A stretch of 64,000 bases of DNA from Orbilia blumenaviensis (Eukaryota > Ascomycota > Orbiliomycetes > Orbiliales > Orbiliaceae): the NCBI GenBank assembly GCA_036872755.1, contig JAVHNS010000003.1, positions 62,001 to 126,000 on the forward strand, read 5' to 3'. Of the stretch, positions 17,492 to 38,568 are shown in pieces (position 1 is the first letter of the stretch; every line of letters begins with the position of its first letter). The notes beneath the pieces were generated by a model. The model was given only the letters and a program-made list of their open reading frames with translations, was not told where the DNA came from and did no database searches. The translations under genes and the position numbers were made by a program.

Positions 17492-17821
17492 TGTCAGGCC
17501 GCGCACCCACGCGGTGGTGCGCAAAATACAACAAGGTCAACACAACGGCTAGAGCTACCCGGTCCGGGCAACACGAACACGCGGCGACCCACCCGGAGAC
17601 CCACCCGGGCAACTTCGGTCCTCGGGCCAACGTCAGATCAGTTCCCTTGATCCGGAAGCAATAGAGAGCCGCGGCCTGACGCTGTGATACGCATATCCTT
17701 CAGTATATAAAGCATAGATAGCAGTCATGTATATAGCTCCTTGTCTTTTAATCTATAACCATAACTAAGGTCATATTCTCAACCGTCGTGACACGCACAC
17801 TCTCGCACATATAACCTTACA
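17492..17821 (+). repeat. 5' LTR of element A
   Basis: 330 bp, TGTCAGGCC ... ACCTTACA. A GC-rich hairpin-forming stretch lies at its start (GCGCACC and GGTGCGC arms near 17501-17522). A TATA box (TATATAAA) is at about 17704-17711. CGG/CCG triplets occur around 17559-17610, including CGGTCCG. Confidence 0.96.
17704..17711 (+). promoter_or_regulatory. TATA box of element A LTR promoter
   Basis: TATATAAA in the LTR. A start site about 32-39 nt downstream would put the RNA 5' end close to 17743, where the self-primer candidate begins. The same box recurs in the 3' LTR. Confidence 0.75.
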
Positions 17822-17832
17822 TATTAAAAGAC
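17743..17832 (+). promoter_or_regulatory. candidate self-priming pair: LTR segment 17743-17752 with site 17823-17832
   Basis: GTCTTTTAAT (17743-17752) is perfectly complementary to ATTAAAAGAC (17823-17832), which begins two bases after the LTR end. Known precedent: Tf1 of fission yeast folds the first 11 nt of its own mRNA onto the primer-binding site, cleaves it and uses it as primer. The TATA box about 35 nt upstream makes 17743 a plausible transcript 5' end. The site does not begin with TGG as a tRNA 3'-end complement normally would. Inference, but with two independent positional coincidences. Confidence 0.7.
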
Positions 17833-17851
17833 CATCTTTCAACCTACTACC

Positions 17852-18823
17852 ATGAGCGCCTCGCAAGTACCCGCAGCGTCCACCGGAGAGGACGAGTTAA
17901 TGCAAAGCGCTCCACAGAGCCCAACGGGTCCTGGACCTTCGGGTCCTGGACCTTCGGGTCCTGGACCTTCGGGAAGCAGTGGAACGCAGCAGCTCGCCCC
18001 ACGACCCAGAGACGACAGTCTAGCTATAGCTACCCAATTCGCAAAGCTGGTTAATAGGCCAGACGAATTTACGGGTGACCGCGGCAAGACGCGAGCCTTC
18101 ATTCATCAGATGAGATTGTTCTTTAACTCCAACCGCTGGATGTTCGAAAATAACGAGGAACGCAAAATTAATTTCGCCCTCAACCAGCTGCGAGGCACTG
18201 CGGCTGAGTGGTCCGAACCTCTAGTGGCTCTGATGAACACAGGCAAAACCCCCCCAGAGCTAGCAACATGGGAGGCGTTCGAGCGAGCCGTCACGACTCA
18301 CTTCGGGGACTTGAACGAAGAAGAAGTAGCCAGACTTGCTATCCTGAAGATACGACAAGAAGGCAAAGTTACCGACTACACGACCCGCTTCAACACGCTA
18401 CGAGCCAAACTACCCCTATGGCATGAGGACACCCTACGTACCCTTTACCACAAAGGCCTTAAAGAGAAAATTCAGAAGGCTATCCTCGCTGCGACTGGCA
18501 GCATGTCGGGGGGACCCAAAGATCTACAGGAGCTCATACAGTTAGCGGTTCGCGTCGAGGGACTGCAAGACCTACATATCAAGAATCATCAAACCCGAAA
18601 TAGTTTACCTCATAACCCACAAGCCCAAGTCGTACCGCAGCAAGCCGCACCGGTATTAGATCAACCAGATCCTATGGAAATAGACGCCTTCCAGCAAAGA
18701 AGATTATCCCCCAGCGAGTATAAGCGTTACAGAGCGAGCAACCTTTGCTTCAAATGTGGAAAATCTGGCCACATGGCAAGGCAGTGCCGCAGCGGCACGC
18801 AGCACAAGGGATCAAAAAAATAA
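17852..18823 (+). CDS. gag: Gag of element A
   Basis: 323 residues. N-terminus is Pro/Gly-rich with a tandem 15-bp repeat encoding GPGPS units (17928-17975). Residues about 70-245 form the retrotransposon Gag capsid region (GDRGKTRAFIHQMRLFF, LRGTAAEWSEPL, EEEVARLAILKIRQEGKVTDY). A CCHC zinc knuckle lies at residues 299-312 (CFKCGKSGHMARQC), binding the element RNA during particle assembly. The ORF ends SKK-stop at a slippery A-run, with pol in the -1 frame. The leader from the inferred RNA start is only about 110 nt. Confidence 0.95.
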   Translation: MSASQVPAASTGEDELMQSAPQSPTGPGPSGPGPSGPGPSGSSGTQQLAPRPRDDSLAIATQFAKLVNRPDEFTGDRGKTRAFIHQMRLFFNSNRWMFENNEERKINFALNQLRGTAAEWSEPLVALMNTGKTPPELATWEAFERAVTTHFGDLNEEEVARLAILKIRQEGKVTDYTTRFNTLRAKLPLWHEDTLRTLYHKGLKEKIQKAILAATGSMSGGPKDLQELIQLAVRVEGLQDLHIKNHQTRNSLPHNPQAQVVPQQAAPVLDQPDPMEIDAFQQRRLSPSEYKRYRASNLCFKCGKSGHMARQCRSGTQHKGSKK

Positions 18824-18849
18824 TGGAGGCGACAGAACTCCCGTCGCCT
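18814..18849 (+). promoter_or_regulatory. -1 ribosomal frameshift module between gag and pol of element A
   Basis: Heptamer A_AAA_AAA (18814-18820) is in the correct phase and abuts the gag stop TAA (18821-18823). After a 6-nt spacer comes a perfect 7-bp stem, AGGCGAC (18827-18833) with GTCGCCT (18843-18849), 9-nt loop. Slipping back one base gives KK-I-M and runs into pol. The stop also overlaps an ATG in the pol frame (TAATG), so stop-restart translation is an alternative. Confidence 0.85.
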
Positions 18850-21800
18850 GGAGAAAAGGGTACCTATGTCATACGCAGCGTCACGCTGGCTGCGATATGT
18901 GGAACAAAACTACCGGAAGGATATTTCAACCATTTGGTAGTAGAAGTAACACTGTCATGGAACGGCGAGACGGTGCGAGCCAGAGCATTAATAGACTGCG
19001 GTGCACCTAGCAACTTCATAGCGACGCGGTTCGCGGCGAGGCACGGCATACCTCTAGTGAGAAGGAATGAAGTCATCCCACTCGAAGGAGTGAATGGCGC
19101 CTCACTGGGCCGCAGCGTCACGCATAAAACAGAAGACTTGGGGATGAAAATAGACAATTTTGAAGAATCTATTTCTTTTGATGTCATGGAAATTAGATCA
19201 TTCGATCTCATACTGGGACTCGCGTGGTTACGCAAAAATAACCCAGACATTAATTGGAATACGGGCCATCTTCTAATGCGACGAGCCGCAGGGCCTCGCG
19301 TTATCACCATAGGACTAGTTGAAGCGGAACAATTCGACTCCCTACTAGAAGACTCCGTACTAGTGGGAGCAACGGTCCTGAAAGAAGCTGCTTCTCAAAG
19401 CGAGTCGATGCGGCACATGCCAAAAGAATACGCCGATTTCGCAGATCTAGGAGAAAAAGAAGCAGCAGATAAGCTACCGGAACACCAGCCCTGGGACCAT
19501 AAGATCCCACTGGTGCGAGACACCGCGCCTCCCTTCGGGCCAATTTATAAGCTTTCTCCAACCGAAGATGAGGCACTAAAATTATATATAGAGGAAATGG
19601 AGTCGAAAGGCTTCATCCGCGAATCCTCTTCACCAGCAGGGGCACCTATTCTTTTCGTAAAAAAGAAGGACGGCTCACTGCGGCTCTGTGTGGACTACCG
19701 GGCACTTAATAATATAACGATAAAAAACCGGTACCCACTACCTTTAATAGACGGACTCCTCGACCAGCTGCGGGGCGCCAAAATATTCACTAAATTAGAC
19801 CTGAGAGGGGCTTATAACTTGGTGCGTATCGCAGCGGGGGAGGAGTGGAAAACAGCGTTTAGAACAAGATATGGCCTCTACGAATATTTAGTAATGCCGT
19901 TTGGATTAACGAATGCACCAGCGACCTTCCAGTCGCTGCTGAACGCGTTGTTCCGCGACTTGCTAGATACCTTCGTTATTATTTATTTAGATGACATCCT
20001 GATCTTCTCTAAGGATTACAAATCTCACGTGGAACACGTACGCACCGTGCTGCAGCGACTCAAAGCGGCATCATTATATGTCAAAGCAGAAAAGTGCGAG
20101 TTCCATAAGGAAAAAGTGGACTTCCTAGGCTTCACCGTGTCGACTCGCGGCATCTCGATGGACGAGAGCAAGGTAGAAGCTGTACACCAATGGAAAGCTC
20201 CTCAGAATATAAAACAGCTACAATCCTTCCTAGGTTTTGTAAACTTCTATCACCGGTTCCTTGCGAGGCACAGCGCCATAGCAGAACCAATTACAAGACT
20301 TTTATCAAAAGAGAAGACATGGGAATGGGGCGAGGAGCAGCAAGCCGCATTCGAACGCATCAAAAGAAAATTTACAACTGAAATAGTACTACCATACTAC
20401 GACTGGAAGCGACGCACTGCGGTCGAAACCGATGCCTCTGGATTCGGAATTGGAGCCTGCCTCTCGCAGCAGGACGAAGAGGGTCGCTGGCACCCTGTCT
20501 GTTTTTGGAGCAGAAAAATGTCAGGAGCAGAGAGGAACTACGAGGTATTTGATCAAGAAATGCTAGCGGTGGTCGAGGCACTGCGACACTGGGCGGCATA
20601 CCTGAAGGGAGCCCAGTTTCAAATCATTATTTACAGTGATCACCGAAGCTTAACTTATTTCACAACCTCAAAGCGACTCAATGCGAGACAAGTCAGATGG
20701 TCTGAGGAACTAGCAGACTATGACTTCACCATTCAATATCGTCCAGGAAAGGATAACGCGGCGGCAGACGCATTGTCTCGCCAGATAGAATACACAGAAG
20801 GACATGATAGATCACTGCCACCTCCATTGCTGAAGGCAGGGCAGCTGATCGCAGCGATACGCAGCAGGCCACTTGGTACCCTGGCACTGATATCCGCTGG
20901 ATTTTCACAAGACATCAATAATATCAAGAAAGCGTATCTCAAAGATGAGAAAGTAAAACGCATTATCAGCGCCATACAGCGAGACGACACGGCATACACG
21001 ACAGGCTATACATTAGAAGAAGACGGCACGCTGCGGTTCGAAGGCAGATTATACATACCCAATGTTTTGAAACTGCGTAAGGATGCGGTACACCGCGTAC
21101 ACGACGCTCCTCTAGCAGGCCATTTCGGTTATCGTAAAACACAAGAATTGTTCTCTAGGAATTATTACTTCCCAGGATACACCGGATTTATTTACAAATA
21201 CATTGCGGGATGCGACGTCTGCCAGCGAAACAAGACAATTAGAAGGCTGAAGAAAGGAAAACTGCTACCACTCCCGGTGCCAGACGCACCGTGGCGCAGT
21301 ATTTCCATGGATTTTATTGTCAAATTACCTCCGTCGCGAGACCCTACGCTGGGAGACGCAAGCCCGGAATTTGACACAATTTGGGTGGTAGTAGACAGGT
21401 TAACCAAATTTGCATACTTTGTACCGCTTCGCGGTGAGCCGCAAGCAGAAGAACTAGCACAAGCTTATGTGAAACACTTAATTCATAACGGTCTTCCAGA
21501 CGACTTTGTGTCTGATCGAGGACGAGTTTTCACCTCTAAGTTCATAGCGAGTCTCTGCGAGGCGACAGGTATCGCAAGGAAGCAATCCACCGCGTTTCAC
21601 CCCGAGACGGACGGTCAGACAGAAAGGGTCAACCAGATCTTGGAACAACTGATAAGGAACTATTGCAATTATAAGCAAAATGACTGGGTCGGCTTGCTTC
21701 CGCTCGCAGCGTTTGCATACAATAATACTTATCAAGTGACAATTAAGATGACCCCATTCTTTGCTAAACATGGTTACCACCCACGGTTCGAAGCGAACCA

Positions 21801-22380
21801 CCTCGTGAGAAATAAGGTGCCAGCCGCAGAGGAACGCATCGAGGAGTTGAAATTGCTACATCAGGCTTGCAAATTAGAGATGAAACAGGCTCAAAATGAC
21901 CAAGCTAGGTACAGCGACTCGAGGCGAGACGAGACACCAGAATACGAGGTCGGGCAAAAGGTTATGCTCTCTAGCAAGAATATAGACACTAAGCGACCCT
22001 CTGCAAAGCTTGAAGCCAGGTTCTTAGGTCCATATAGAATCACGGCCCGCATTGGGACGCATGCCTATGAGCTAGCATTACCTAAGAAGATGAGACAACA
22101 TAATGTTTTCCATGTGTCACTTCTAGAGCCATATATCATAAATGAAATCCACCCAGCACCCCCCGAGCCGCAGCATGTCGAGGTAGAGGGAGAGGAAGAA
22201 TGGGAAATAGAAAAGATATTAGCAGAGGATAATTTCAAGAAGGGCGCACGGAGCCGCACCGAGACGAAGCACTATTTGGTTAAATGGAAAGGTTGGTCGC
22301 TAGCAGACGCATCATGGGAGCCTGAAGAACACTTACTGCACGCTGAGGCTAAGATTAGAGATTTTAAAAGAACACTTTGA
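18823..22380 (+). CDS. pol: Pol of element A (protease, RT, RNase H, integrase, chromodomain)
   Basis: 1185 residues counted from the ATG at 18823; the frame is open back to 18745, so in a frameshift product it is fused to Gag. Protease active site DCGA at residue 58 (Cys replaces the usual Ser/Thr, as in other chromoviruses). RT carries CVDYRALNNI, FTKLDLRGAY and YLDDILIF at 388. RNase H has ETDASGFG near 537. Integrase has an HHCC zinc-binding region (CDVCQRN), and catalytic D830, D898 and E934; the last two are exactly 35 residues apart. A GPY-type module (FLGPYRITAR) and a chromodomain (EIEKILA ... YLVKWKGW ... SWEPEEHL) end the protein. The chromodomain probably guides insertion to methylated-H3K9 heterochromatin, matching its location in RIP-damaged DNA. 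Confidence 0.97.
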   Translation: MEATELPSPGEKGTYVIRSVTLAAICGTKLPEGYFNHLVVEVTLSWNGETVRARALIDCGAPSNFIATRFAARHGIPLVRRNEVIPLEGVNGASLGRSVTHKTEDLGMKIDNFEESISFDVMEIRSFDLILGLAWLRKNNPDINWNTGHLLMRRAAGPRVITIGLVEAEQFDSLLEDSVLVGATVLKEAASQSESMRHMPKEYADFADLGEKEAADKLPEHQPWDHKIPLVRDTAPPFGPIYKLSPTEDEALKLYIEEMESKGFIRESSSPAGAPILFVKKKDGSLRLCVDYRALNNITIKNRYPLPLIDGLLDQLRGAKIFTKLDLRGAYNLVRIAAGEEWKTAFRTRYGLYEYLVMPFGLTNAPATFQSLLNALFRDLLDTFVIIYLDDILIFSKDYKSHVEHVRTVLQRLKAASLYVKAEKCEFHKEKVDFLGFTVSTRGISMDESKVEAVHQWKAPQNIKQLQSFLGFVNFYHRFLARHSAIAEPITRLLSKEKTWEWGEEQQAAFERIKRKFTTEIVLPYYDWKRRTAVETDASGFGIGACLSQQDEEGRWHPVCFWSRKMSGAERNYEVFDQEMLAVVEALRHWAAYLKGAQFQIIIYSDHRSLTYFTTSKRLNARQVRWSEELADYDFTIQYRPGKDNAAADALSRQIEYTEGHDRSLPPPLLKAGQLIAAIRSRPLGTLALISAGFSQDINNIKKAYLKDEKVKRIISAIQRDDTAYTTGYTLEEDGTLRFEGRLYIPNVLKLRKDAVHRVHDAPLAGHFGYRKTQELFSRNYYFPGYTGFIYKYIAGCDVCQRNKTIRRLKKGKLLPLPVPDAPWRSISMDFIVKLPPSRDPTLGDASPEFDTIWVVVDRLTKFAYFVPLRGEPQAEELAQAYVKHLIHNGLPDDFVSDRGRVFTSKFIASLCEATGIARKQSTAFHPETDGQTERVNQILEQLIRNYCNYKQNDWVGLLPLAAFAYNNTYQVTIKMTPFFAKHGYHPRFEANHLVRNKVPAAEERIEELKLLHQACKLEMKQAQNDQARYSDSRRDETPEYEVGQKVMLSSKNIDTKRPSAKLEARFLGPYRITARIGTHAYELALPKKMRQHNVFHVSLLEPYIINEIHPAPPEPQHVEVEGEEEWEIEKILAEDNFKKGARSRTETKHYLVKWKGWSLADASWEPEEHLLHAEAKIRDFKRTL

Positions 22381-24257
22381 GAGATTTTGCGAGTCGCAAT
22401 GACCCGCGGAAAAAACTTGAAATTACTATTAAAAACTCTAGAGTCGCAGCGGGCCGATCTAGTAAAACTATCAGGAACAAGGCAAATCTAAAAAGACAAA
22501 AAACTCCCACAGAAAATTAAGAAAAAATTAACGAAAACAGACGCAGCGACACGCAGAAAATCTACTCATAATGCAACCAAACCGGACGACTTCTCCTCTT
22601 GGAGACCTTATATTTACGGGTCTTCCCGTCTCCATCCTTCTTCTTCCTCCTTCCACCACGGTGAGGACCGCGGTGACCCGCATTTCTACCGCAATAACAA
22701 AGAGCGGCCCCACTACCATCTCCTCCTCCACCTCCACCAGTTCCGCCATCTCCTCCATCCCCCGCACCGCCGTCACCCGCAGGGGGAGGAGCTCCACCAC
22801 TCCCATCTCCTCCATCACCACCCCCATCGCCACCTCCCGCAGCGCCATCCCCACCATCACCTCCATCACCTCCAATAACCGCTGGAGGACCCCCAACCCC
22901 ACAACCACAGGAAACGAAAGAACTTAGCGCGCTTTCCAACGCAGCGACACGCGAAACCAAAGAATTCGGCCCAGGAACCACGGGAAGACCTCCTCGAAGC
23001 AACAAGTGCTCCAAAGTTGCGATTTGCTGCGAGGGGGCGTTGAAGTCTGGAATATTGTCGAAGCGACCCGACGCGGCACCCACAGCAACTGGGGCAACCT
23101 CAAAGAAGGCTGCTTCCCACCAATCTCGACGAACCACCACACCAGCAGGAATCCTCATGGTCAGGGTGACCGGATGAACAAGTTGACTCATGCGAGTCGC
23201 AACGGGTCGAGCAGCGAAGCCAGCAGCTGTAGAATTGACACCCCCAAATTGACAAGGCCGAGTCGCACCGAGTCGCCTCTTGCGGCAACGAGAACAAGCG
23301 TCGTGGTCACCGGGGGAAGGGTAGCAAGCAAAGCCTGCAGTTTGACATTGGTCGCATGCGGTACGCAGCGGGGGACCGAGGTTAATACGAACCGCTTCCG
23401 CGATATCGATAGTACGCATACCAAGTTGGCCAGCCATTCTTTCGAGCGAGGAAGGGCGAGACGAGGCGAAAAGAAATTGATATACACTCTGCGAGGCAGA
23501 GCGAGACGAGGAGGGAAGAGTTGTAAGTTGTTGACTTGAAAATTTTAGAACGTTTTAGGACTGTTGATCCAGAAGAGCTGTTTATCGGAAAATTTTGGGG
23601 TGAAGAGAAGAAGAAAGGGACGAAAGGGCGCGAGACGCAGCGTTATATGTTAGATTTCAGCCTTCTTTGAGATTCTAGAAGCTGGGATTCATACAGTTTA
23701 CAGTCACATCCTCACGCTACGAGCCGCAAAATGCAAGCTTTAAGGCTACGAGCCGTAGAGCACGGTTGCTGAAGGTCGCAACCCGTAGAATGCAAGCTTC
23801 ATGATAATGCAAACTCGCGGGTCGACGCATAGCACGGCAAGTTTAATTTTATACGGTCGGCCGCCCACACCACACCAAAAATCCCTAGAATACGACGTGC
23901 CGCGGGCCGTCGCAGAACAAACCCAAGATCTTTCATACAACTTCACGGTACGCAGTCTCCCGCAGAGTCACAGTGCATAAGTGGAATCCCTAGCATGTAT
24001 AGAGTTTTGTTTTGAGTTTATAGCTAGCGTGTTGTTTTTGTTGCATATTGTTTTCATACGCTTGAGCCTAGCGGCCAAGCTCAGAGCCTCCGAAACACCC
24101 GCGCAGAGTCGCAGCGGTACGATGACACTGGTAAGCTGGAGCCTAGGACTGGCCCCCTAGAACACTCTCTAGGCTACGCAGGAGAACTACAGCTTCAACA
24201 CGGGTCGCAGCGACGAGGTCTCATTTAGTTTTTAGCAAGCAAGCTTCGAAGGCTATT
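22381..24257. repeat. dispersed GTCGCA motif field in element A 3' region
   Basis: By eye I count nine GTCGCA hexamers on the plus strand between pol and the 3' LTR (22393, 22443, 23196, 23262, 23351, 23775, 23909, 24108, 24204), many within GAGTCGCARCGG-like contexts, against about 0.5 expected by chance. They span the antisense ORF and its upstream region. Confidence 0.6.
22562..23437 (-). CDS. antisense extra ORF of element A: six-cysteine cluster protein
   Basis: 291 residues, intronless, transcribed against pol and lying wholly inside the element. A six-cysteine cluster sits at residues 28-62 with spacing C-x2-C-x6-C-x9-C-x2-C-x10-C, close to the Zn2Cys6 fungal DNA-binding pattern; basic residues RKRR follow the fifth cysteine. 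Residues 75-170 are ordinary, with a well-formed segment (VVVRRDWWEAAFFEVAPVAV) and a helical stretch ending in SFVSCGCG. About 60 residues of Gly/Asp-rich repeats follow, then LCYCGRNAGHRGPH and a very basic tail (GGRRKKKDGDGKTRKYKVSK). No known family recognised. The likely role is regulation or silencing-evasion of the element; this is inference. Codon bias of the repeats leaves room for doubt in the C-terminal half. Confidence 0.7.
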   Translation of the reverse strand: MAGQLGMRTIDIAEAVRINLGPPLRTACDQCQTAGFACYPSPGDHDACSRCRKRRLGATRPCQFGGVNSTAAGFAARPVATRMSQLVHPVTLTMRIPAGVVVRRDWWEAAFFEVAPVAVGAASGRFDNIPDFNAPSQQIATLEHLLLRGGLPVVPGPNSLVSRVAALESALSSFVSCGCGVGGPPAVIGGDGGDGGDGAAGGGDGGGDGGDGSGGAPPPAGDGGAGDGGDGGTGGGGGGDGSGAALCYCGRNAGHRGPHRGGRRKKKDGDGKTRKYKVSKRRSRPVWLHYE

Positions 24258-24269
24258 AGAGAGGGATGG
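24258..24269 (+). promoter_or_regulatory. polypurine tract of element A
   Basis: AGAGAGGGATGG immediately precedes the 3' LTR, the expected plus-strand DNA primer. One T interrupts it. Confidence 0.75.
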
Positions 24270-24599
24270 TGTCAGGCCGCGCACCCACGCGGTGGTGCGC
24301 AAAATACAACAAGGTCAACACAACGGCTAGAGCTACCCGGTCCGGGCAACACGAACACGCGGCGACCCACCCGGAGACCCACCCGGGCAACTTCGGTCCT
24401 CGGGCCAACGTCAGATCAGTTCCCTTGATCCGGAAGCAATAGAGAGCCGCGGCCTGACGCTGTGATACGCATATCCTTCAGTATATAAAGCATAGATAGC
24501 AGTCATGTATATAGCTCCTTGTCTTTTAATCTATAACCATAACTAAGGTCATATTCTCAACCGTCGTGACACGCACACTCTCGCACATATAACCTTACA
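24270..24599 (+). repeat. 3' LTR of element A
   Basis: 330 bp, read as identical to 17492-17821. Followed by target duplication AATTC (24600-24604). Confidence 0.96.
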
Positions 24600-29378: not shown

Positions 29379-29936
29379 TGTCACGGCCAGCCATACTAGG
29401 TATGTCTTGGCGTGTCAAACATGAGTCCGTTTTCGCAGGCTGTTTCTCACACCGAGATGATTTTTATTATAAATATCCGGCGGGAGAAAACCATACCAGA
29501 AAAGAGACGGATTGGACTGTGTTGTGCCGACAACACAACTCCCAGAACAAACCATGCAGAAAGCGTTATGTGTGGCTTGGCGCGTTATGTGCACATAACG
29601 CCCTCCGGGGCACATAACGCCCAAGTCTATAGACGATTCACATTTGTATGGACGACGCTCATGTATATAAGGACCTTTGAACGATGGCAGTCTCAGGATT
29701 CTTTCTTAGACTCCATCGGTCAACTTATCAATACTCAATACACTCTGTTTACTACCTTTACCCATTGAACCTAGTATCCCCTTACTAGGAGTTACACTAT
29801 TTGATATCTCTATATTCAACCCAGCTTACCTTGAGAGAATAATCTGAATACTTTAGATTGAGAATACGATTAGCCAAAGAACGCTAGGCTGTTTTAGGAA
29901 TTTCCTATTTGGGAAATACCCGGGACAGGTGTAACA
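29379..29936 (+). repeat. 5' LTR of element B
   Basis: 558 bp, TGTCACGGCC ... GGTGTAACA. TATA box (TATATAAG) at 29664-29671. Contains the GCGTTATGTG inverted-repeat array at 29563-29620. Small ORFs inside it are not considered genes. Confidence 0.96.
29563..29620. promoter_or_regulatory. array of four GCGTTATGTG half-sites with a perfect 20-bp palindrome
   Basis: GCGTTATGTG at 29563-29572, a perfect palindrome GCGTTATGTGCACATAACGC at 29582-29601, and an inverted copy CACATAACGC at 29611-29620, all about 45-100 bp upstream of the TATA box. The arrangement (direct plus inverted half-sites) is typical of a dimeric protein's binding region. Repeated in the 3' LTR at 38195-38252. Confidence 0.7.
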
Positions 29937-29947
29937 CTTTGACCGAT
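29715..29947 (+). promoter_or_regulatory. candidate self-priming pair: LTR segment 29715-29723 with site 29939-29947
   Basis: ATCGGTCAA (29715-29723) is perfectly complementary to TTGACCGAT (29939-29947), which starts three bases after the LTR end. The LTR segment lies about 45-50 nt past the TATA box, a plausible RNA 5' end. As in element A, the site lacks the TGG expected for a tRNA 3' end. Nine bases is weaker than the ten in A, but the two independent elements show the same geometry. Confidence 0.55.
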
Positions 29948-29976
29948 CCGACTCTCAACGGTAAGGCGAGAATCGT

Positions 29977-32900
29977 ATGTCAAGCAATAGCAGTGACGCC
30001 GAATATCACGACTTCCACGGCACTACTTACGGAATAGGAGACAATCTCTTTGATAGAGTAATACGTCTACCAGTTGCAACTCAAGATCAACAGACGCAGA
30101 CAGAAGAATCATCTGCAGAACAGGTTGAATTACCCCCTCTAGAGCTAACCACTGACAGTGAAGATTTAGAATTAGTACGAATCAGTGTTCCGTCCGGACA
30201 ATATAGAGACACTGAATACATCAGCGTTACGACTAGGATACAGCCGACGCTAGATCATTTTCGAAGACACGAACGACTACTTAGCACAGCATCAGACTTA
30301 CTCAACGCAATGGCCAGCGTAGGAGGACCCTCAAGTGGACAGATTCCACCAACTGTGGAAGATCTCATGACGAGAATAGCCACTTTGGAAGTAGAATACA
30401 AGCAAGCTGTCGCAGACAAGGAAGAAGCGCTCTTACAGAAACAATTGGAATATGAAACCCTCAAAACGGATTACGACAAGGAAAAAGTCAGAACCGGTAC
30501 TAACAAGGCACCTAAAATCGGAGACCCAATAAAGTACTCTGGCAAACCCGAGAAAATTGATCACTTTCTCCACCAACTCTCAACCCATTTTGAAGTACAG
30601 GGTGACAGATTTCCAAATGACAGACTCAAGGTCATCTTTGCAGGAATGTACTTGGAAGACCCGATCCTCCAAGCATTCATCAACTACAATAATCATTATG
30701 TCAAGAATGGAACCGCCTCTGACGCCCACATCCTCAAGATCATGACGAATTTCGAGGAATTCGTCACGTTCCTTAAACAACAATGCGGAGAAGACGATAA
30801 GGTTAACAAGGCCCGTAGGGACCTTGAAGGACTCAAACAGACTAACTCAGCTCGTGGATACTTCCACAAGTTCAACCAAATCGCCCTTCTCACCGAATGG
30901 GACGAATCCAACATCACCTACCGAGCCCGAGAAGGATTGAAACCAGAGCTGAAGGTTCAAGTCCTTCTCAGAGAACAACAACTCGGAAAACCCCTCGAAC
31001 GCATGGAAATGCAGAAGATGGTCATCGAAATCGACGACATCTACTGGCGAAATAAGCACGGTCAGGGAAAGAAGAATTTCCACGACCATGGTCCTAAGAA
31101 GGACAAGAACAAGGGGAAGGCACCCCAGAACCAGAATAATAAAGGAAATGGGAACTGGCGTAAGAATAAGGATGGAAGTTTTACTCCAAATAAAACTTTT
31201 GGCCCAGCCCCCATGGATCTCAACACAACTCGACACAATTACCCGCACAACAAGGAGCCCAAGGGACCAAAATCTAACAGCCCTATTTGCTACAATTGCA
31301 ACAAATCTGGGCATATTGCTAGAAATTGCGACGAGCCACGACAAAATAACACATTTCAACAACGCAGAAATGTCAGATTCGCGAACACCAACTCTCCACC
31401 ACCACCTACTACGAAGAAAGTTCAAATGACACACCAGTCTACTCCTCAGGAGATCGAACAACTTCAGCAGCGAATTCTTGAGCAAGCCTCAAACTGCTCA
31501 ACCACCTCCGATCAACCTATGAACACCCCCGAGTCTACCACCCAAGAAGAAGAAACTGGACTTGAAGTTGCCCCAGTCACCCATGATCCAACTCCTCAAG
31601 AATATCATTGGCTTTGGAACAATCCGACGCCTGGAGTTCATTTGAACTACGAGAGGCGCCCTAACGGAGAACTCTTCCAGGAGTACATGTCTGAAGGGAT
31701 TCACTATACCCGCCTAGTTCATATTGACCCCATACCACGAAATCCTAAGGTTCATCTACGATCCACTAATGTAGTAGAGGACCCCCTCACCAAAATGGAT
31801 TTATCACTCGCTTACGACCAAATCTCCCACAGATGGGAAGATCTTCCTATGGAACACTCAAGTGATGAAGAGGAAGCCTACAAAGAAGTTCCCTCTAGCC
31901 CTTCAACTACGTCCTACAGGAGCTGGGATGACGACGAAGCCTTTGCCCCTGAGACCTACGTTGACGACATAATCCCTATGGAACTCGAAGAAGGACAAGT
32001 CCGATGTATGGATTGTCAGAAAGGAACCCACAACTGGCGCGAAAGTTACAACCGTACAACTCAAAGTCGATCGGACCGCAGATGTCTAGACTGCTACACT
32101 ACTTTCACTGCTGGATGTGCCGGATACAGATATGCTGAAAACCGGAAATGGCCCTCCTCTAAGAAATACCAAGATGCCCTCTTCTATGCTAATAGCGACC
32201 TTTATGGAGTCGACTTTGCAGAAGATTGGGAAACCTACCATAAAGGAATCGAAGACGTCGATTCCCCTCCTACCTACGAACAAACCGATGAGATTGGATG
32301 CATTGCTTCGGAATATTGGGAAGTTGCTCCCGATTGCCACCTGTGCGAGACCCGACCCTCAGATGTGAGACTCTACGACCACGCTCTCTATCTTTGCGAT
32401 CTCTGCCACGATGGATGGAGCTTATACACTGGATATTTCAACTTCGTCCAACTTACCCCCTACGATCCCAATACCCCTTTTAATTGCAGGAAATGCCCCT
32501 GTCAATATCCCTTTCGAACCATCATTCAACTCTTAACTCACCAAGATACTTGCATCACTCAATTCGACACCGACTACGAGGAAGAAACCACAGAATACCA
32601 CAGAAAGGACAAACACTATTGTACAGCCGGTACCAAACATATCACCAAGCACGGCTTGATCAAGAAGGAGAATCGCCGATGCCGACTCTGCAGAAAACCA
32701 GCTGTCTACTCGTTTTATGGAGGATACGACCTCTGTATCAACCACACCCGAAAATATGTCACCTTCACTGGAAATCCTCATGTCCTAGAAATCAAACCAA
32801 ATGCTCGAAACGTAGGATGGCGATGCATGTACTGCCGAGACCTCACCTTTGACACCTGGCTTGACTTCAGACATCATTTCCAGGAAGATCACCCCAACCA

Positions 32901-33054
32901 CGGACAGGATGACCCTGCCTCACCTTACTACCGACTTAAAATCACCGATCTTAAACGAGGTCACCTTGAACCAAGACCCAACAGATTCCTCCACATCAAC
33001 AAGATTGAATTTGCCGACGTCTATGGAAGAATGAACATGGAAGGAAAAAACTAA
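29977..33054 (+). CDS. gag: Gag of element B with long cysteine-rich C-terminal extension
   Basis: 1025 residues, two to three times the usual Gag length. Residues about 125-170 are coiled-coil-like, 180-345 are the capsid region (GKPEKIDHFLHQLSTHFEV, FVTFLKQQCGEDD), and a CCHC knuckle lies at 438-451 (CYNCNKSGHIARNC). The following 570 residues are unlike standard Gag: an acidic stretch, then paired-cysteine units at about 677 (CMDC ... CLDC), 788 (CHLC ... CDLC), 836 (CRKCPC ... HQDTC), 901 (CRLC ... CINH) and 950 (CMYC-x12-H-x5-H, a C2H2-like finger). The tail is in frame, free of stops and well-composed, so it is presumably functional. Its role is unknown; nucleic-acid or host-protein binding is inferred. 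Confidence 0.93.
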   Translation: MSSNSSDAEYHDFHGTTYGIGDNLFDRVIRLPVATQDQQTQTEESSAEQVELPPLELTTDSEDLELVRISVPSGQYRDTEYISVTTRIQPTLDHFRRHERLLSTASDLLNAMASVGGPSSGQIPPTVEDLMTRIATLEVEYKQAVADKEEALLQKQLEYETLKTDYDKEKVRTGTNKAPKIGDPIKYSGKPEKIDHFLHQLSTHFEVQGDRFPNDRLKVIFAGMYLEDPILQAFINYNNHYVKNGTASDAHILKIMTNFEEFVTFLKQQCGEDDKVNKARRDLEGLKQTNSARGYFHKFNQIALLTEWDESNITYRAREGLKPELKVQVLLREQQLGKPLERMEMQKMVIEIDDIYWRNKHGQGKKNFHDHGPKKDKNKGKAPQNQNNKGNGNWRKNKDGSFTPNKTFGPAPMDLNTTRHNYPHNKEPKGPKSNSPICYNCNKSGHIARNCDEPRQNNTFQQRRNVRFANTNSPPPPTTKKVQMTHQSTPQEIEQLQQRILEQASNCSTTSDQPMNTPESTTQEEETGLEVAPVTHDPTPQEYHWLWNNPTPGVHLNYERRPNGELFQEYMSEGIHYTRLVHIDPIPRNPKVHLRSTNVVEDPLTKMDLSLAYDQISHRWEDLPMEHSSDEEEAYKEVPSSPSTTSYRSWDDDEAFAPETYVDDIIPMELEEGQVRCMDCQKGTHNWRESYNRTTQSRSDRRCLDCYTTFTAGCAGYRYAENRKWPSSKKYQDALFYANSDLYGVDFAEDWETYHKGIEDVDSPPTYEQTDEIGCIASEYWEVAPDCHLCETRPSDVRLYDHALYLCDLCHDGWSLYTGYFNFVQLTPYDPNTPFNCRKCPCQYPFRTIIQLLTHQDTCITQFDTDYEEETTEYHRKDKHYCTAGTKHITKHGLIKKENRRCRLCRKPAVYSFYGGYDLCINHTRKYVTFTGNPHVLEIKPNARNVGWRCMYCRDLTFDTWLDFRHHFQEDHPNHGQDDPASPYYRLKITDLKRGHLEPRPNRFLHINKIEFADVYGRMNMEGKN

Positions 33055-33084
33055 GAAAACTTCAGGACTCGATGCCGCCTGAAG
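33045..33084 (+). promoter_or_regulatory. -1 ribosomal frameshift module between gag and pol of element B
   Basis: Heptamer A_AAA_AAC (33045-33051), in phase, directly precedes the gag stop TAA (33052-33054). After an 8-nt spacer comes a perfect 7-bp stem, CTTCAGG (33060-33066) with CCTGAAG (33078-33084), 11-nt loop containing the first pol ATG. A one-base backslip reads CTA-AGA-AAA-CTT and continues without a stop into pol at 33072. Confidence 0.88.
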
Positions 33085-36000
33085 GGTCCAAGTTACGCAT
33101 CGTTAAAAATGGACCATCCAAACAACTTTCCTTACAGTCAACCAAAAATCATTTCTTTCTACCAGTCAACATTAACGGAAACTCCAGCACGTCTTTATTA
33201 GACTGTGGAGCAGAAGATTCATTCATTCACCCCGAAGTTGTCAAACAACTTAAACTACCTTACATTCAGAAACTTCAGAAAACACATGTTACCGCCTTCG
33301 ATAATAGCCCTCTTGGAACAATCACTCACGAAACCACTTTCACACTTCTTATAAATGGACACTTGGAAACAATCACGATGGATATCCTAGAGACCCCCCA
33401 CGAATTGGTTCTCGGATTCCCTTGGTTGGAAGAACATAACCCAAGTATTAACTGGAAAACTCGACACCTTGAATTCTCGAGATGCGATTGTAGAAAGATC
33501 TATTCCAAGATCCGACCGGACAATCGACCCCCAAAAGAAGCTCATCACCGACTCACCCAACATATGTCACAAAAAGAAGTTAACAACCGTCTCCGAAACA
33601 AACCTCATTCCATAAGACATGTTTTTCTCAAAATACGAGAAATTAACAAAGAAAAGAAGGAGATTCCAGATTGGATTCTCGAAGATAATAAATTGGTCTT
33701 TCAGCCCCCAGACGAAAGGGACCCCCTACCGAAAATCAATCAATTCACACATCATATCCCTCTAAAGGAAGGAACCCAACCAAAATCTCTACCTATATAC
33801 GCATGTACAGAAGAAGAAACTGCGGCTCTACGCGAATACATTGACGAAAACCTTCGCAATGGATTCATACGACCTTCTAACTCACCCGCAGGACACCCTA
33901 TACTATTCGTACCAAAACCTAATGGAAAACTGCGAATATGTATCGATTACAGAAGCTTGAACGACATTACGATCAAAGACACTGGACCCCTACCACTGAT
34001 AAGCGAGTCTTTCGATCGCTTAACAGGAGCAAATTACTTCACCAAATTGGATATTATCAATGCCTACTACAATATCAGGATAAATCCAGGAGAAGAATGG
34101 AAAACGGCTTTTCGATGCCGCTACGGTCTATTTGAATACTTGGTTATGCCATTTGGGCTAACCAATGCACCAGCTTCTTTCCAAGCTTTTATGAACCATG
34201 TGCTTCGAGAGCACATAGATGTCATTTGTGTTGTCTACCTAGATGACATTTTGATTTTCAGCAAGACGCTGGGAAAACACAAGGAAAACGTCAACGCAGT
34301 GTTGAAATCCCTCCGGGACTACGACCTACGTGTGGCGCTAGACAAGTCAGAATTTGCTGTTACTGAATGCGAATTCTTAGGAGCCATAGTCACCTCGAAT
34401 GGAATTAAGATGGACCCAAAGAAGGTTCAAGCCATTCAAGATTGGCCTCTCCCTGAGAATGTCAAAGAAGTGCAGTCATTTCTTGGACTTTGCAATTATT
34501 ATCGACGATTTATTCGGAAATACAGCTTCATGTCAGCAGCGCTTTCCGAACTCACCAAGAAACAACTGAAGTTTGAAATGACGCCCGAAAGAGTTCAAGC
34601 CTTTGAAACTCTGAAAAAATCATTTACCTCCGCCCCCATTCTCAAACTTTACGATCCGAAATTACCTATCAAGATTGAAACCGACGCCTCTACAGCAGCG
34701 CTAGGAGCCTGCTTACTCCAACTCCATAAGGACAAACAATGGTACCCCATTGCCTACATCTCTCACAAATTCGATGCTACGCAACTGCGATACGCTATTC
34801 ATGACAAGGAATTGATGGCTATTGTAGAAGCATGTCGAAAATGGCGCGTTTACCTCCAAAGCAAAGAACCTTTCACAGTTCTATCCGATCACAAGAACCT
34901 CACTTACTTCCTAACCACGAAGGAACTTAGCAGACGGCAAGTTCGATGGTGGGAACTCCTCAGCGAATATAGCATGAAGATAATACACTTTAAAGGAAAA
35001 GAGAATGCTCTCGCAGATGCGATAAGCAGGAGACCAGACCTTGTCAAAGGCGTTGAACCTGACAAAGGAGCAATTCTCAAATATGGCGATACTAAGGACC
35101 AGATTCTCATCAATAAATCCCTGAATCTGACAGAACACAATATCGAAGATGATCTTCGACAGAAAGTCCTCAAAGCCTATGAACAAGACCCTGTTGCACA
35201 ACGGATCTTGAAGAAAGAAGATACACCCCCTCACTTTGAATTAGTCGACGGAATTATTATGTTTCGAGACTCGTTCTACATCCCAACTAAGAAACTTCAA
35301 GAAGAAATCATCTCTTTACACCACGATCACCCAGCTCATGGTCATCTTGGAATTGACCGTACTCAGGAACTTATCACAAAGACTTATTTCTGGCCTCAGA
35401 TGAGAAAGCAGATCGAAGAATACATCAAAACTTGCGATCTTTGCTGCAGAAACAAGCCTAACCGACACAAACCTTACGGAACCCTTCAACCACACGACGT
35501 ACCAAGTGCACCCTTCGAAGTTATTACTTACGACTTTGTACAAGGAATGCCTCCAGCACGAGACCCCCTCACCAACAAGCTGTACGACGAAATATTGGTT
35601 ATCACGGACAAGTTGACAAAAGTTGCTATTTTTGTCCCATGGGATAGCCAATGGGGAGCCAAAGAATTACAACAAGTCTACCACAACCATGTTTTCTCTA
35701 AATATGGAATCCAACGAAAACACATTTCTGATCGCGACCCTCTTTTTACGAGCAAATATTGGCAGTCAATTATGAACCAAACTGGTACTAAATTGAACAT
35801 TGCAACCAAAGGTCACGCTCAAACGGACGGAGCCTCCGAGAGACTCATCCAAACCCTTGAAATCTACCTTCGAAACTTCCTCAACTACGCTCAAAATAAT
35901 TGGATACCCCTTCTACCCATGGCAGAATTCACCTACAACACTTCTCAACATTCAACTACTAAGTACACCCCGTACGAAGTACTGAGAGGATGGACGCCTA

Positions 36001-36632
36001 AGGCTATTCTTCCCCCTCTCACGCCGAAAGAAGTTGTCCCCGAAGCTGAAGAACATATGAAATCAATGAAGAATGCTCATAATATTCTCGTAAAAGACCT
36101 TCAGTTCTCACAAGAAAGAATGAGCCATTACTACGACAAACGACGGGAGGAAGCCCCAGATTTTAAAGAAGGAGATAAAGCATATCTGCTTGCACGAAAC
36201 TTGAAAACCAAGCGACCTAATAAAAAACTTGATTTTCAGAAATTTGGCCCATACGTAATCAAGAAGAAACTTGGAAAGCACCATTTTGAACTTGACATAC
36301 CTGGACCAACACGGATACACAAGACATTTCATGTCTCAGTCTTAGAAAGAGCCCCTCCAGGACTCAGAGAAGACCCGAACGAGATTGAAATCGAATACGA
36401 CGACTACGCGGAATACGAAGTTGAAAGAATCCTTGACGGACCTAACGGCGACAACGAATACCTTATTCGTTGGGCTGCTCCCTACGGACCAGAAGACGAT
36501 TCTTGGCAACCAGAAGAAAATATTTCGCCACAAACTATACAGGATTACCTTAGGAACAGGGACCCACCCCATCAACCTGATGCCCCTGCACCTAAACGAG
36601 GACGAGGAAGACCTAAGAAAAATAGAGATTAG
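33072..36632 (+). CDS. pol: Pol of element B (protease, RT, RNase H, integrase, chromodomain, AT-hook)
   Basis: 1186 residues from the ATG at 33072; more likely made as a Gag-Pol fusion by frameshift. Protease DCGA at residue 44. RT has CIDYRSLNDI, FTKLDIINAY and YLDDILIF at 389. RNase H has ETDAS near 538. Integrase shows the HHCC region (CDLCCRN) and catalytic D821, D887, E923, the last two 35 apart. A GPY-type module (FGPYVIKKKL) precedes a chromodomain-like segment (YEVERILDG ... EYLIRWAAPYG ... DSWQPEENI). The final residues KRGRGRPKKNRD form an AT-hook, a minor-groove binder of AT-rich DNA. The chromodomain-AT-hook pair could bias insertion into RIP-derived AT-rich heterochromatin, which is where the element sits. 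Confidence 0.97.
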   Translation: MPPEGSKLRIVKNGPSKQLSLQSTKNHFFLPVNINGNSSTSLLDCGAEDSFIHPEVVKQLKLPYIQKLQKTHVTAFDNSPLGTITHETTFTLLINGHLETITMDILETPHELVLGFPWLEEHNPSINWKTRHLEFSRCDCRKIYSKIRPDNRPPKEAHHRLTQHMSQKEVNNRLRNKPHSIRHVFLKIREINKEKKEIPDWILEDNKLVFQPPDERDPLPKINQFTHHIPLKEGTQPKSLPIYACTEEETAALREYIDENLRNGFIRPSNSPAGHPILFVPKPNGKLRICIDYRSLNDITIKDTGPLPLISESFDRLTGANYFTKLDIINAYYNIRINPGEEWKTAFRCRYGLFEYLVMPFGLTNAPASFQAFMNHVLREHIDVICVVYLDDILIFSKTLGKHKENVNAVLKSLRDYDLRVALDKSEFAVTECEFLGAIVTSNGIKMDPKKVQAIQDWPLPENVKEVQSFLGLCNYYRRFIRKYSFMSAALSELTKKQLKFEMTPERVQAFETLKKSFTSAPILKLYDPKLPIKIETDASTAALGACLLQLHKDKQWYPIAYISHKFDATQLRYAIHDKELMAIVEACRKWRVYLQSKEPFTVLSDHKNLTYFLTTKELSRRQVRWWELLSEYSMKIIHFKGKENALADAISRRPDLVKGVEPDKGAILKYGDTKDQILINKSLNLTEHNIEDDLRQKVLKAYEQDPVAQRILKKEDTPPHFELVDGIIMFRDSFYIPTKKLQEEIISLHHDHPAHGHLGIDRTQELITKTYFWPQMRKQIEEYIKTCDLCCRNKPNRHKPYGTLQPHDVPSAPFEVITYDFVQGMPPARDPLTNKLYDEILVITDKLTKVAIFVPWDSQWGAKELQQVYHNHVFSKYGIQRKHISDRDPLFTSKYWQSIMNQTGTKLNIATKGHAQTDGASERLIQTLEIYLRNFLNYAQNNWIPLLPMAEFTYNTSQHSTTKYTPYEVLRGWTPKAILPPLTPKEVVPEAEEHMKSMKNAHNILVKDLQFSQERMSHYYDKRREEAPDFKEGDKAYLLARNLKTKRPNKKLDFQKFGPYVIKKKLGKHHFELDIPGPTRIHKTFHVSVLERAPPGLREDPNEIEIEYDDYAEYEVERILDGPNGDNEYLIRWAAPYGPEDDSWQPEENISPQTIQDYLRNRDPPHQPDAPAPKRGRGRPKKNRD

Positions 36633-36986
36633 CATACTTTGTAGATTTTCGACCTACAAGGATATGGCCTCTCTACCCAACCAGTTCCTACACTTACGAA
36701 TTTTCTTTACAAACATCCACCTCCACAGACACACGGTCTGAACAGACACCTACGGTGTTGATCGTCCAACCACTCTTCGACCCTCTCCAGATACCTTATT
36801 TCCTCAACCAGCAGAACCCTGTACTCTGGCCGCGCTAACGAGCGACTGCGCAGAAGCTGTATCGATAGAGCGATACCACGAATTATTGGAGTCAACGACT
36901 CAGCGCGAATCATAGCAAGATAACAAGGCATGATTTGATTTGAAAATGAGAAGTTACGAATACATGACAGGAAACCAGCCAAAGTT
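36633..36986. other. spacer between pol and antisense gene of element B
   Basis: About 350 bp serving as 3' flank for both convergent transcripts. No ORF supported. Confidence 0.5.
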
Positions 36987-37685
36987 TCAGATAGTACTCT
37001 GAAGGAAATCCTCCATGGAAAACGCGAGATAACTCTCATCCCACCCAGCAGAAAAATCCACCGCATCCGCTGGGATGTCGCAGAAGAAGTCAAGCACCTC
37101 ATCAGGCGCTGACGAACCTTCACCAGCCCCTTCTTCAACGATCGGATCATCTCCGAATATCATATCATTTTCTATGACTCTCTGTTCTTCATGAAGAAGA
37201 GATTCTCGATACTTCCGCGCGATTACTGAAGCCTCAGTGGATTGACGTTTTAATTCAGCCGCAACAGTGTTGAACTCAGCCAGAAGCTCTGTGAGCTTTG
37301 TCTGACCTTCGATGACTTTTTGATGTGCTATTTCATACCGAGCAGAAGTTTCTTCCAATTCTTTGAACTTCTTGTCTCGAATTTCCGCAATACGATCCAC
37401 TAAAGATTTTGGATTAGAAACACCCCACAAAGCGGAGAAAAACAAAAATCACTTACAAGGAATTGCATTGCATTTTCCTACTCTGCCCTGTCTATGACAG
37501 ACTTCGCACTTGATGCTCTTTTCCAACATGACGCAAATATGACCGTTCGCGACGCAGTGTGAACACGGAACTGCAGCCTCTAAACCTTCTGACTTGAACC
37601 GCTCAAGAAAGATGGCCCTTCTTCGTTTTGCTTGGACGCGATTCTCTGATCTTTTTTTAGGTTTTTGAATGGCGCTCCGTTGCAT
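36987..37685 (-). CDS. spliced antisense gene of element B: small Zn2Cys6-like regulator
   Basis: Two exons, 37685-37457 and 37399-36987, intron 57 nt with GTAAGT donor and TTTAG acceptor; 642 nt, 213 residues, in phase. N-terminus is basic (KPKKRSENRVQAKRRR). Six cysteines at residues 41-72 follow C-x2-C-x6-C-x8-C-x2-C-x8-C, near the fungal Zn2Cys6 pattern. A roughly 80-residue helical, charged segment (DRIAEIRDKKFKELEET ...) looks like a coiled coil. The C-terminal 50 residues are acidic with bulky hydrophobics (DEVLDFFCDIPADAVDF), like an activation domain. A spliceable intron on this strand means the gene is expressed from its own antisense transcript, not from the genomic RNA. Probable transcription-factor-like protein; targets unknown, the LTR array being one candidate. 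Confidence 0.82.
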
Positions 37686-37996
37686 GATCAGAATGAAAGA
37701 TTTGATATTATTTTGTATGTATGAAAGAATATTTTGTGGTTTAAGTTTTGAAATTTAGTTATGGTGCGAATTGCAGTTATTTATGTTTGATTTTGATTAC
37801 ATAATCATGTAACGTGATCATGAAGGCTAAGCCTTCGGACACGAGAATTCTTGTACACAAATTTCTCCCAGACGGTTTTCCCGTACGGTAGAATTTTGTA
37901 GACGAATTTTGTACAAAGGCCCTTTACCCAGTTTTGTTGCATCTCCTATGTGCGAGAAGATCCCGCATGGGAATTTCCCTTTTGGGAGTTTCCCTT
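37686..37996. other. promoter region of the antisense gene, element B
   Basis: About 310 bp of AT-rich DNA between the antisense gene start and the polypurine tract. Contains imperfect inverted repeats (CATAATCATG with CGTGATCATG near 37800-37825; GGGAATTTCCC with GGGAGTTTCCC at 37969-37994). Confidence 0.5.
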
Positions 37997-38010
37997 GAAG
38001 GAGGAGATAG
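37997..38010 (+). promoter_or_regulatory. polypurine tract of element B
   Basis: GAAGGAGGAGATAG directly before the 3' LTR, the expected plus-strand DNA primer. Confidence 0.8.
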
Positions 38011-38568
38011 TGTCACGGCCAGCCATACTAGGTATGTCTTGGCGTGTCAAACATGAGTCCGTTTTCGCAGGCTGTTTCTCACACCGAGATGATTTTTATT
38101 ATAAATATCCGGCGGGAGAAAACCATACCAGAAAAGAGACGGATTGGACTGTGTTGTGCCGACAACACAACTCCCAGAACAAACCATGCAGAAAGCGTTA
38201 TGTGTGGCTTGGCGCGTTATGTGCACATAACGCCCTCCGGGGCACATAACGCCCAAGTCTATAGACGATTCACATTTGTATGGACGACGCTCATGTATAT
38301 AAGGACCTTTGAACGATGGCAGTCTCAGGATTCTTTCTTAGACTCCATCGGTCAACTTATCAATACTCAATACACTCTGTTTACTACCTTTACCCATTGA
38401 ACCTAGTATCCCCTTACTAGGAGTTACACTATTTGATATCTCTATATTCAACCCAGCTTACCTTGAGAGAATAATCTGAATACTTTAGATTGAGAATACG
38501 ATTAGCCAAAGAACGCTAGGCTGTTTTAGGAATTTCCTATTTGGGAAATACCCGGGACAGGTGTAACA
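38011..38568 (+). repeat. 3' LTR of element B
   Basis: 558 bp, read as identical to 29379-29936. Followed by AATAT (38569-38573). Confidence 0.96.

Follow-up and report, generated by a model that had tools for sequence, protein, structure and literature searches.

Here we describe a gene on the antisense strand of element B, a Ty3/gypsy chromovirus located at 29379-38568 of a 64,000-nucleotide stretch of Orbilia blumenaviensis DNA (the window, C3:62001-126000 in a genome of 42.46 Mb and 23 contigs that we judge to be fungal from its elements and gene style). The element is bounded by two identical long terminal repeats (LTRs) of 558 bp (29379..29936 and 38011..38568, plus strand) and encodes, on the plus strand, a gag of 1025 amino acids (29977..33054) and a pol of 1186 (33072..36632) with protease, reverse transcriptase (RT), RNase H, integrase and chromodomain. 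Its assignment to the Ty3/gypsy chromoviruses rests on the RT, the RNase H, an integrase placed after the RT, the chromodomain, the TG...CA LTRs and a 5-bp target duplication. Twelve intact copies of pol together with the antisense gene exist in the genome, and their matches to the gene reach the same 99% identity, all of them free of stops. All 20 LTRs fetched from 10 other copies are letter-identical to that of the window, and the 11 copies with both flanks read (that of the window and the 10 fetched) all show 5-bp target duplications, in 200-bp flanks of 1 to 19% GC. Element B is young and was recently active.

The antisense gene (37685..36987, minus strand) lies between pol and the 3' LTR and has the two-exon structure, frame and coordinates claimed in an earlier note made from this sequence alone. 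Exon 1 (37457..37685, minus strand) encodes residues 1-76, with a basic N-terminus and, at residues 41-72, the Cys6 motif C-x2-C-x6-C-x8-C-x2-C-x8-C. A 57-nt intron (37400..37456, minus strand; GTAAGT...CTAAT...TTTAG) separates it from exon 2 (36987..37399, minus strand, stop included), which encodes a helical, coiled-coil-like segment and an acidic tail. The joined exons form a 642-nt frame of 213 amino acids plus stop, while the unspliced frame hits a stop within the intron. The charges also agree with the earlier description, being +8 over residues 1-40 and -17 over residues 151-213, where Lys and Arg are absent. The proposed coiled coil is plausible but unproven, because the simple heptad score of residues 73-158 was matched by 26 of 500 shuffles. 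The gene is opposite to pol with respect to strand, as had been stated, but does not overlap it, since pol ends at 36632. A TATA-like CATAAATAAC (37776..37785, minus strand), picked out by eye some 95 nt upstream of the ATG of the antisense gene, is a candidate promoter.

Besides the intact copies, exon 2 is found at 62 relic places (matches at E above 1 were excluded), all containing stops. Twenty relic stretches read with their flanks have 3 to 25% GC, 15 of them 3 to 9%, and the one at 25% (L039) also includes part of an intact copy. The mutation is extreme repeat-induced point mutation (RIP). Usual RIP is CpA-biased and less extreme than seen in these relics; in L033-L052 and L077-L096 the GC content goes down to 2 to 9%, apparently with nearly all C and G lost irrespective of the neighbouring base. 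Since even a fully mutated relic has its purine/pyrimidine pattern unaltered, any difference that is neither C>T nor G>A reflects divergence that preceded RIP, or else a later random change. In all 20 relics read, the first six and last three bases of the intron differ from the intact copy by RIP-type changes only, and the intron measures 55-57 nt in 17 of them and 58, 62 and 67 nt in L036, L039 and L048, owing to small insertions. It can be read as an intron on the minus strand only. As the genomic RNA has no spliceable form and yet the intron survives retrotransposition, established retroelement biology makes it most likely that it belongs to the antisense strand, in line with the earlier claim. 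Between the gene and the 3' LTR, presumably in the antisense promoter, there is also a 15-base palindrome with 7-base arms, GAAGGCTAAGCCTTC (37822-37836), that is altered in about 6 relics.

Selection on the frame was analyzed in 40 of the 62 relic places (20 with flanks and 20 with the gene only; the other 22 were not fetched), counting each distinct difference once, as synonymous or not, and allowing for the pre-RIP letter at each site. This comparison of dN/dS across copies, which the earlier note had named as a check, points to purifying selection: in codons 41-213 the differences present in at least two relics are 16 synonymous and 19 nonsynonymous, where 6.8 and 28.2 are expected (omega ~0.29, P 0.0005), and all differences amount to 29 and 44 (omega 0.42, P 0.0003). 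The same test on five other frames (wrong frames and the opposite strand) gave no significant signal (P 0.15 to 1.0), and pol as a control, in the 20 long relics, gave an omega of 0.17 for all differences and 0.06 for shared ones. No constraint is seen over residues 1-40 (omega 1.6 counting all differences, 0.8 counting the shared ones). The Cys core has 20 differences, spread over 16 sites, and the six Cys codons are free of them. Relics L092 and L093 are identical across the gene, and leaving one of them out does not change the result. Most of the signal comes from a diverged version of the gene in one clade formed by L038, L040 and L046; of the differences present in at least two of these, 12/26 are synonymous (4.9 expected, P 0.001). 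Without the three relics, 5/10 shared differences are synonymous (2.1 expected, P 0.035), and over all differences the excess is not significant (8/29, 6.5 expected, P 0.30). The gene also accompanies pol closely: it lies, in antisense, 360 to 1454 bp downstream of 28 of the 29 B-family pol loci scored (12 intact and 17 mutated, a sample obtained by scoring 39 of 267 candidates), the exception being C9:1901321. Intact copies, linkage with pol and frame-specific selection together confirm, as far as sequence can, that the antisense gene is real beyond chance.

We also found a candidate binding site. The U3 of the 3' LTR contains a symmetric four-site array, GCGTTATGTG-9-GCGTTATGTG directly followed by CACATAACGC-9-CACATAACGC (38195..38252), which is repeated identically in the 5' LTR (29563..29620, C3:91563-91620); 43 bp after it comes the TATA box of the LTR promoter, TATATAAGG (38296..38304, plus strand). 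The array consists of four copies of one 10-mer, and none of 500 shuffles reached four copies of any 8-mer or 10-mer. Genome-wide, its pair pattern occurs 48 times, and every occurrence is in one of the 24 LTRs that belong to the 12 intact copies. Its 20-bp palindromic centre, searched with up to three mismatches in the 42-Mb genome, retrieves the same 24 LTRs and 2 more places at three mismatches (reversed control, 0), and the half-site outside LTRs is at chance level (40 vs 48). In purine/pyrimidine terms, all 40 of 40 array positions are kept in 16 of 19 relic LTRs (200 shuffles: maximum 34, mean 30.3). L048, with a small insertion in the array, scores 30, and L040 and L046 also score 30, which is the chance level; these last two relics combine an ordinary pol with a strongly divergent exon 1 (35 transversions over 229 bases) and with a U3 that is unlike the usual one but common to both (92.6% identity between the two over 296 bp including flanks). 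Measured against the LTR background, the half-sites are not significantly more conserved (0/640 cells changed; P 0.38 and 0.11), and CGG/CCG triplets are not enriched in the U3 (P 0.27). A second LTR type, with an altered block at about 38055-38151, occurs in relics L034, L035, L041, L042, L045, L047, L050, L051 and L052; it is joined to an ordinary pol, which suggests recombination between elements during reverse transcription.

A second case is present in the same window. Element A (17492-24599), another young chromovirus, has LTRs of 330 bp (17492..17821 and 24270..24599, plus strand), a pol with chromodomain that is about 42% identical to that of element B (18745..22380, plus strand) and, between pol and the 3' LTR, an antisense open reading frame (ORF) of 291 amino acids (22562..23437, minus strand) with the motif C-x2-C-x6-C-x9-C-x2-C-x10-C, a Gly/Asp-rich middle and a basic end. 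A comparison of coordinates places this ORF in 10 of 10 intact element A copies, so that 22/22 intact pol frames of both families are accompanied by an antisense Cys6 gene. The two cores share five of the six Cys, two Gly, two Arg, one Leu and one Ala in a two-row alignment (28%). The selection test found 3 usable differences only for the element A gene, in 6 relic pieces, and CGG/CCG triplets in its U3 give a mere hint of enrichment (18 vs 11.9 expected, P 0.02). Conservation of a Cys6 ORF in related elements, which had been proposed as a check, holds for both families but not for a Ty3-like open frame of 1947 amino acids on another contig (L103, C7:1117000-1121200), where neither an antisense Cys6 ORF nor a repeat was found in the 4.2 kb 3' of pol; the frame may belong to an element that is solitary or has been domesticated. 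Other open matches are an RT in a 1051-aa frame (C6:654654) and an integrase in a 436-aa frame (C1:1717772). In the 3' region of element A (22391-24211, minus strand), TGCGACTC occurs five times in one orientation (6 in the whole window vs 1.3 expected), and near copies are present too; it is a possible family-specific motif, although its 10-base form, GCTGCGACTC, is not confined to the element (74 in the genome vs 68 for the reversed control). The 12 B and 10 A elements that are unmutated and nearly identical coexist with relatives full of mutations, as though RIP had been inactive since the burst (e.g. through loss of sex). The gag of element B is unusually long; it has a CCHC knuckle at residues 437-453 and, past it, a long extension (31336-33054) with several more CxxC pairs.

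What kind of protein the gene encodes was approached by motif, profile and structure. Zn2Cys6 zinc clusters have the spacing C-x2-C-x6-C-x5-12-C-x2-C-x6-8-C and, in their classical form, a basic DNA-contact loop between Cys2 and Cys3. The spacing of element B, 2-6-8-2-8, fits the range of this family (PF00172), while in element A (2-6-9-2-10) the last gap goes beyond it. With the Pfam Zn_clus profile the whole element B protein gives no match, exon 1 scores 13.0 bits, the core 14.6 and half 1 alone 16.7; the whole element A protein gives no match and its core scores 7.5 bits (cut-off 21). Half 1 of the Cys6 motif is similar to half 2 of the classical domain (two comparisons), and its half 2 is weakly similar to the classical half 1 (one comparison only). 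For the structure prediction that had been suggested, a VIA second look was taken at an AF2 single-sequence model of exon 1: 7 of the 7 listed entries are fungal Zn2Cys6 domains, HAP1, Pho7 and GAL4 being among the entries listed, but with low Z. In a database of 5.8 billion proteins, none of 247 candidates with E up to 10 is a relative of the 213-residue protein, and none of 1388 is a relative of residues 1-180 of the element A protein; for pol as control the count was 6458 of 8000 scored, the nearest (P0001) being 66% identical. Scans of viral contigs with the antisense protein and with the pol alignment found no relative, and when the PDB was searched by sequence with the B protein as a whole, the B core alone and the first 103 residues of the element A protein, only weak matches to other proteins appeared.

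Our preferred reading, and the most economical one that covers all these parts, is an element-encoded, dimeric zinc-cluster regulator that would act on the LTR of its own chromovirus from an antisense gene; we assign it about an even chance on the sequence evidence. We infer that transcription of the gene would start either at a promoter in the stretch that separates it from the 3' LTR or within that LTR, and that the transcript would then be spliced. The 213-residue product would enter the nucleus by means of its basic N-terminus and dimerise through the exon 2 helix, and its zinc-cluster-like Cys6 domain, presumably holding zinc, would bind the four-site array in U3. The acidic tail may then activate gag-pol transcription or, less likely, tune it or protect it from silencing; activation is favoured by the acidity of the tail together with the position of the sites. 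The product could control its own gene as well, since that gene has the 3' LTR array some 510 bp upstream of its ATG. In a broader and more tentative form, which we consider possible though somewhat less than evenly likely, fungal chromoviruses would carry a self-contained circuit, made of a spliced antisense gene for a new, half-swapped type of zinc-cluster protein and a private palindromic LTR array. This circuit would drive or shield no promoter but that of the element, would pass on and be swapped between elements as a single module, and would have arisen in, or spread to, at least two families of this genome.

Several points weigh against this interpretation. The element B protein does not reach the Pfam gathering score for Zn_clus of 21 bits, and the basic loop between Cys2 and Cys3 is absent from both proteins, being replaced by VANGHI in B and QTAGFA in A, where a basic stretch, RKRR, sits after Cys5 instead. 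As most of the selection signal comes from L038, L040 and L046, few independent lineages are behind it. Furthermore, the joint change of exon 1 and U3 in L040 and L046 may be explained by linkage alone, since the two regions are adjacent on the DNA and a single event would suffice. The earlier idea of a miniature Zn2Cys6 regulator agrees with the Cys spacing, the basic flank, the tail and, at low Z, the neighbours of the model, but not with the Pfam score or the loop. An own DNA-binding regulator that controls the LTR is partly supported, by a selected gene and a private array, with a zinc-cluster identity that holds only in part.

Among the other explanations, the one that survives best, although we consider it unlikely, is that the protein works in the nucleus as an accessory to replication or integration (as a nucleic-acid chaperone, in import of the pre-integration complex or in target choice), with a structural or RNA-binding Cys6 domain and an array bound by a host factor. 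Selection and pol linkage require merely some benefit to the element, the classical DNA-contact loop is missing and 11 of 11 insertions with flanks read sit in DNA of 1 to 19% GC. However, the chromodomain can account for AT-rich insertion, the listed structural neighbours are DNA-binding domains, and a widely used host factor is argued against by the absence of the array centre elsewhere in the genome and the lack of half-site enrichment. Less probable still is sequence-specific anti-silencing, where the protein would bind its own element and remove or block heterochromatin as VANC does. The survival of 12 unmutated copies amid at least 62 RIP-riddled relic places, the AT-rich surroundings of 11/11 copies read and a repeated, element-private array that fits the VANC targets described in PMC5735166 would agree with this; nevertheless, an array directly before the TATA box is in the ordinary position of activator sites, and in its acidity the tail resembles activation domains. 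We regard as very improbable that the antisense RNA rather than a protein is the active product, pairing with the genomic RNA, feeding RNA interference and limiting copy number, as has been proposed for retroelement antisense transcripts in PMC7264820, because selection acts on the protein frame, is unseen in other frames, and neither the intron nor the Cys codons are needed for an RNA role. Least credible is a functionless remnant of a once-captured host gene, for which we found nothing in favour, host Zn_clus sequences being common (58 matches), and which is already disfavoured by the purifying selection, besides the gene at 28/29 pol loci, the lack of a stop-free match better than E 1 outside the 12 elements and the occurrence of a separate version in a second family.

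Plants and one fungal family have long been known to harbour LTR retrotransposons with an extra antisense gene, whose function is unsettled according to PMC7264820. The fungal case is brtn of Boty-like (BcGypsy1) from Botrytis cinerea, an extra antisense gene placed, like that of element B, between pol and the 3' LTR of a gypsy element with chromodomain; in the passages of PMC8365987, PMC7264820 and PMC4227169 on brtn, neither a zinc cluster nor an LTR site is mentioned. As our database search found no relative of the 213-residue protein, BRTN, if included there, is not a close one. A BRTN relative is mentioned in a Monilinia paper, and a figure legend names additional ORFs of unknown function in fungal chromoviruses (PMC2864245). 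In the open-licence literature, which leaves out the original brtn description and a zinc motif possibly given there, we found no fungal retrotransposon with an antisense gene of zinc-cluster or Zn2Cys6 type. In this sense, judging from the sources at hand, antisense genes at this position are already known from Botrytis, and the zinc-cluster type would be a new variation. Both the element B and the element A genes are antisense, occupy the interval between pol and the 3' LTR and occur in most copies of their families, as expected of antisense additional ORFs of the aORF-3R or brtn-like kind. The plant aORF-3R genes (maize Grande gene23, rice RIRE2, Silene Retand and PvRetro13) resemble them in position and strand but belong to plant elements, and no Cys6 domain is reported for them in the sections read of PMC7264820, where a nuclear location and an antisense promoter are given for that of Grande.

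Compared with Gal4/HAP1/PUT3-type Zn2Cys6 proteins (PF00172), the element B protein has six Cys at allowed spacings, a basic flank, a coiled-coil-like linker and an acidic tail, but it falls below the Pfam cut-off, lacks the Cys2-Cys3 basic loop, its halves resemble the classical ones in swapped order, and it is borne by a retroelement on the antisense strand. VANC of the Arabidopsis VANDAL elements is likewise element-encoded, and its targets are often tandem repeats that vary between related elements, according to PMC5735166. It differs in coming from a plant DNA transposon and in counteracting methylation. To our knowledge, VANC is not a zinc cluster. HBZ of HTLV-1 is a nuclear regulator, a bZIP protein that affects its own LTR and antagonises Tax. 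In outline it resembles our proposal for element B, namely a nuclear protein that dimerises, is encoded by a spliced antisense gene of a retroelement and regulates the LTR of that element, though the bZIP domain sets it apart and common ancestry is not suggested. The union in one element of a plausible domain type, frame-specific selection and a candidate binding site makes the function directly testable. If our proposal is true, a sequence-specific regulator of their own would be a trait that fungal LTR retrotransposons share with VANDAL elements and complex retroviruses, and the compact pairing of regulator and site may be usable as a private switch.
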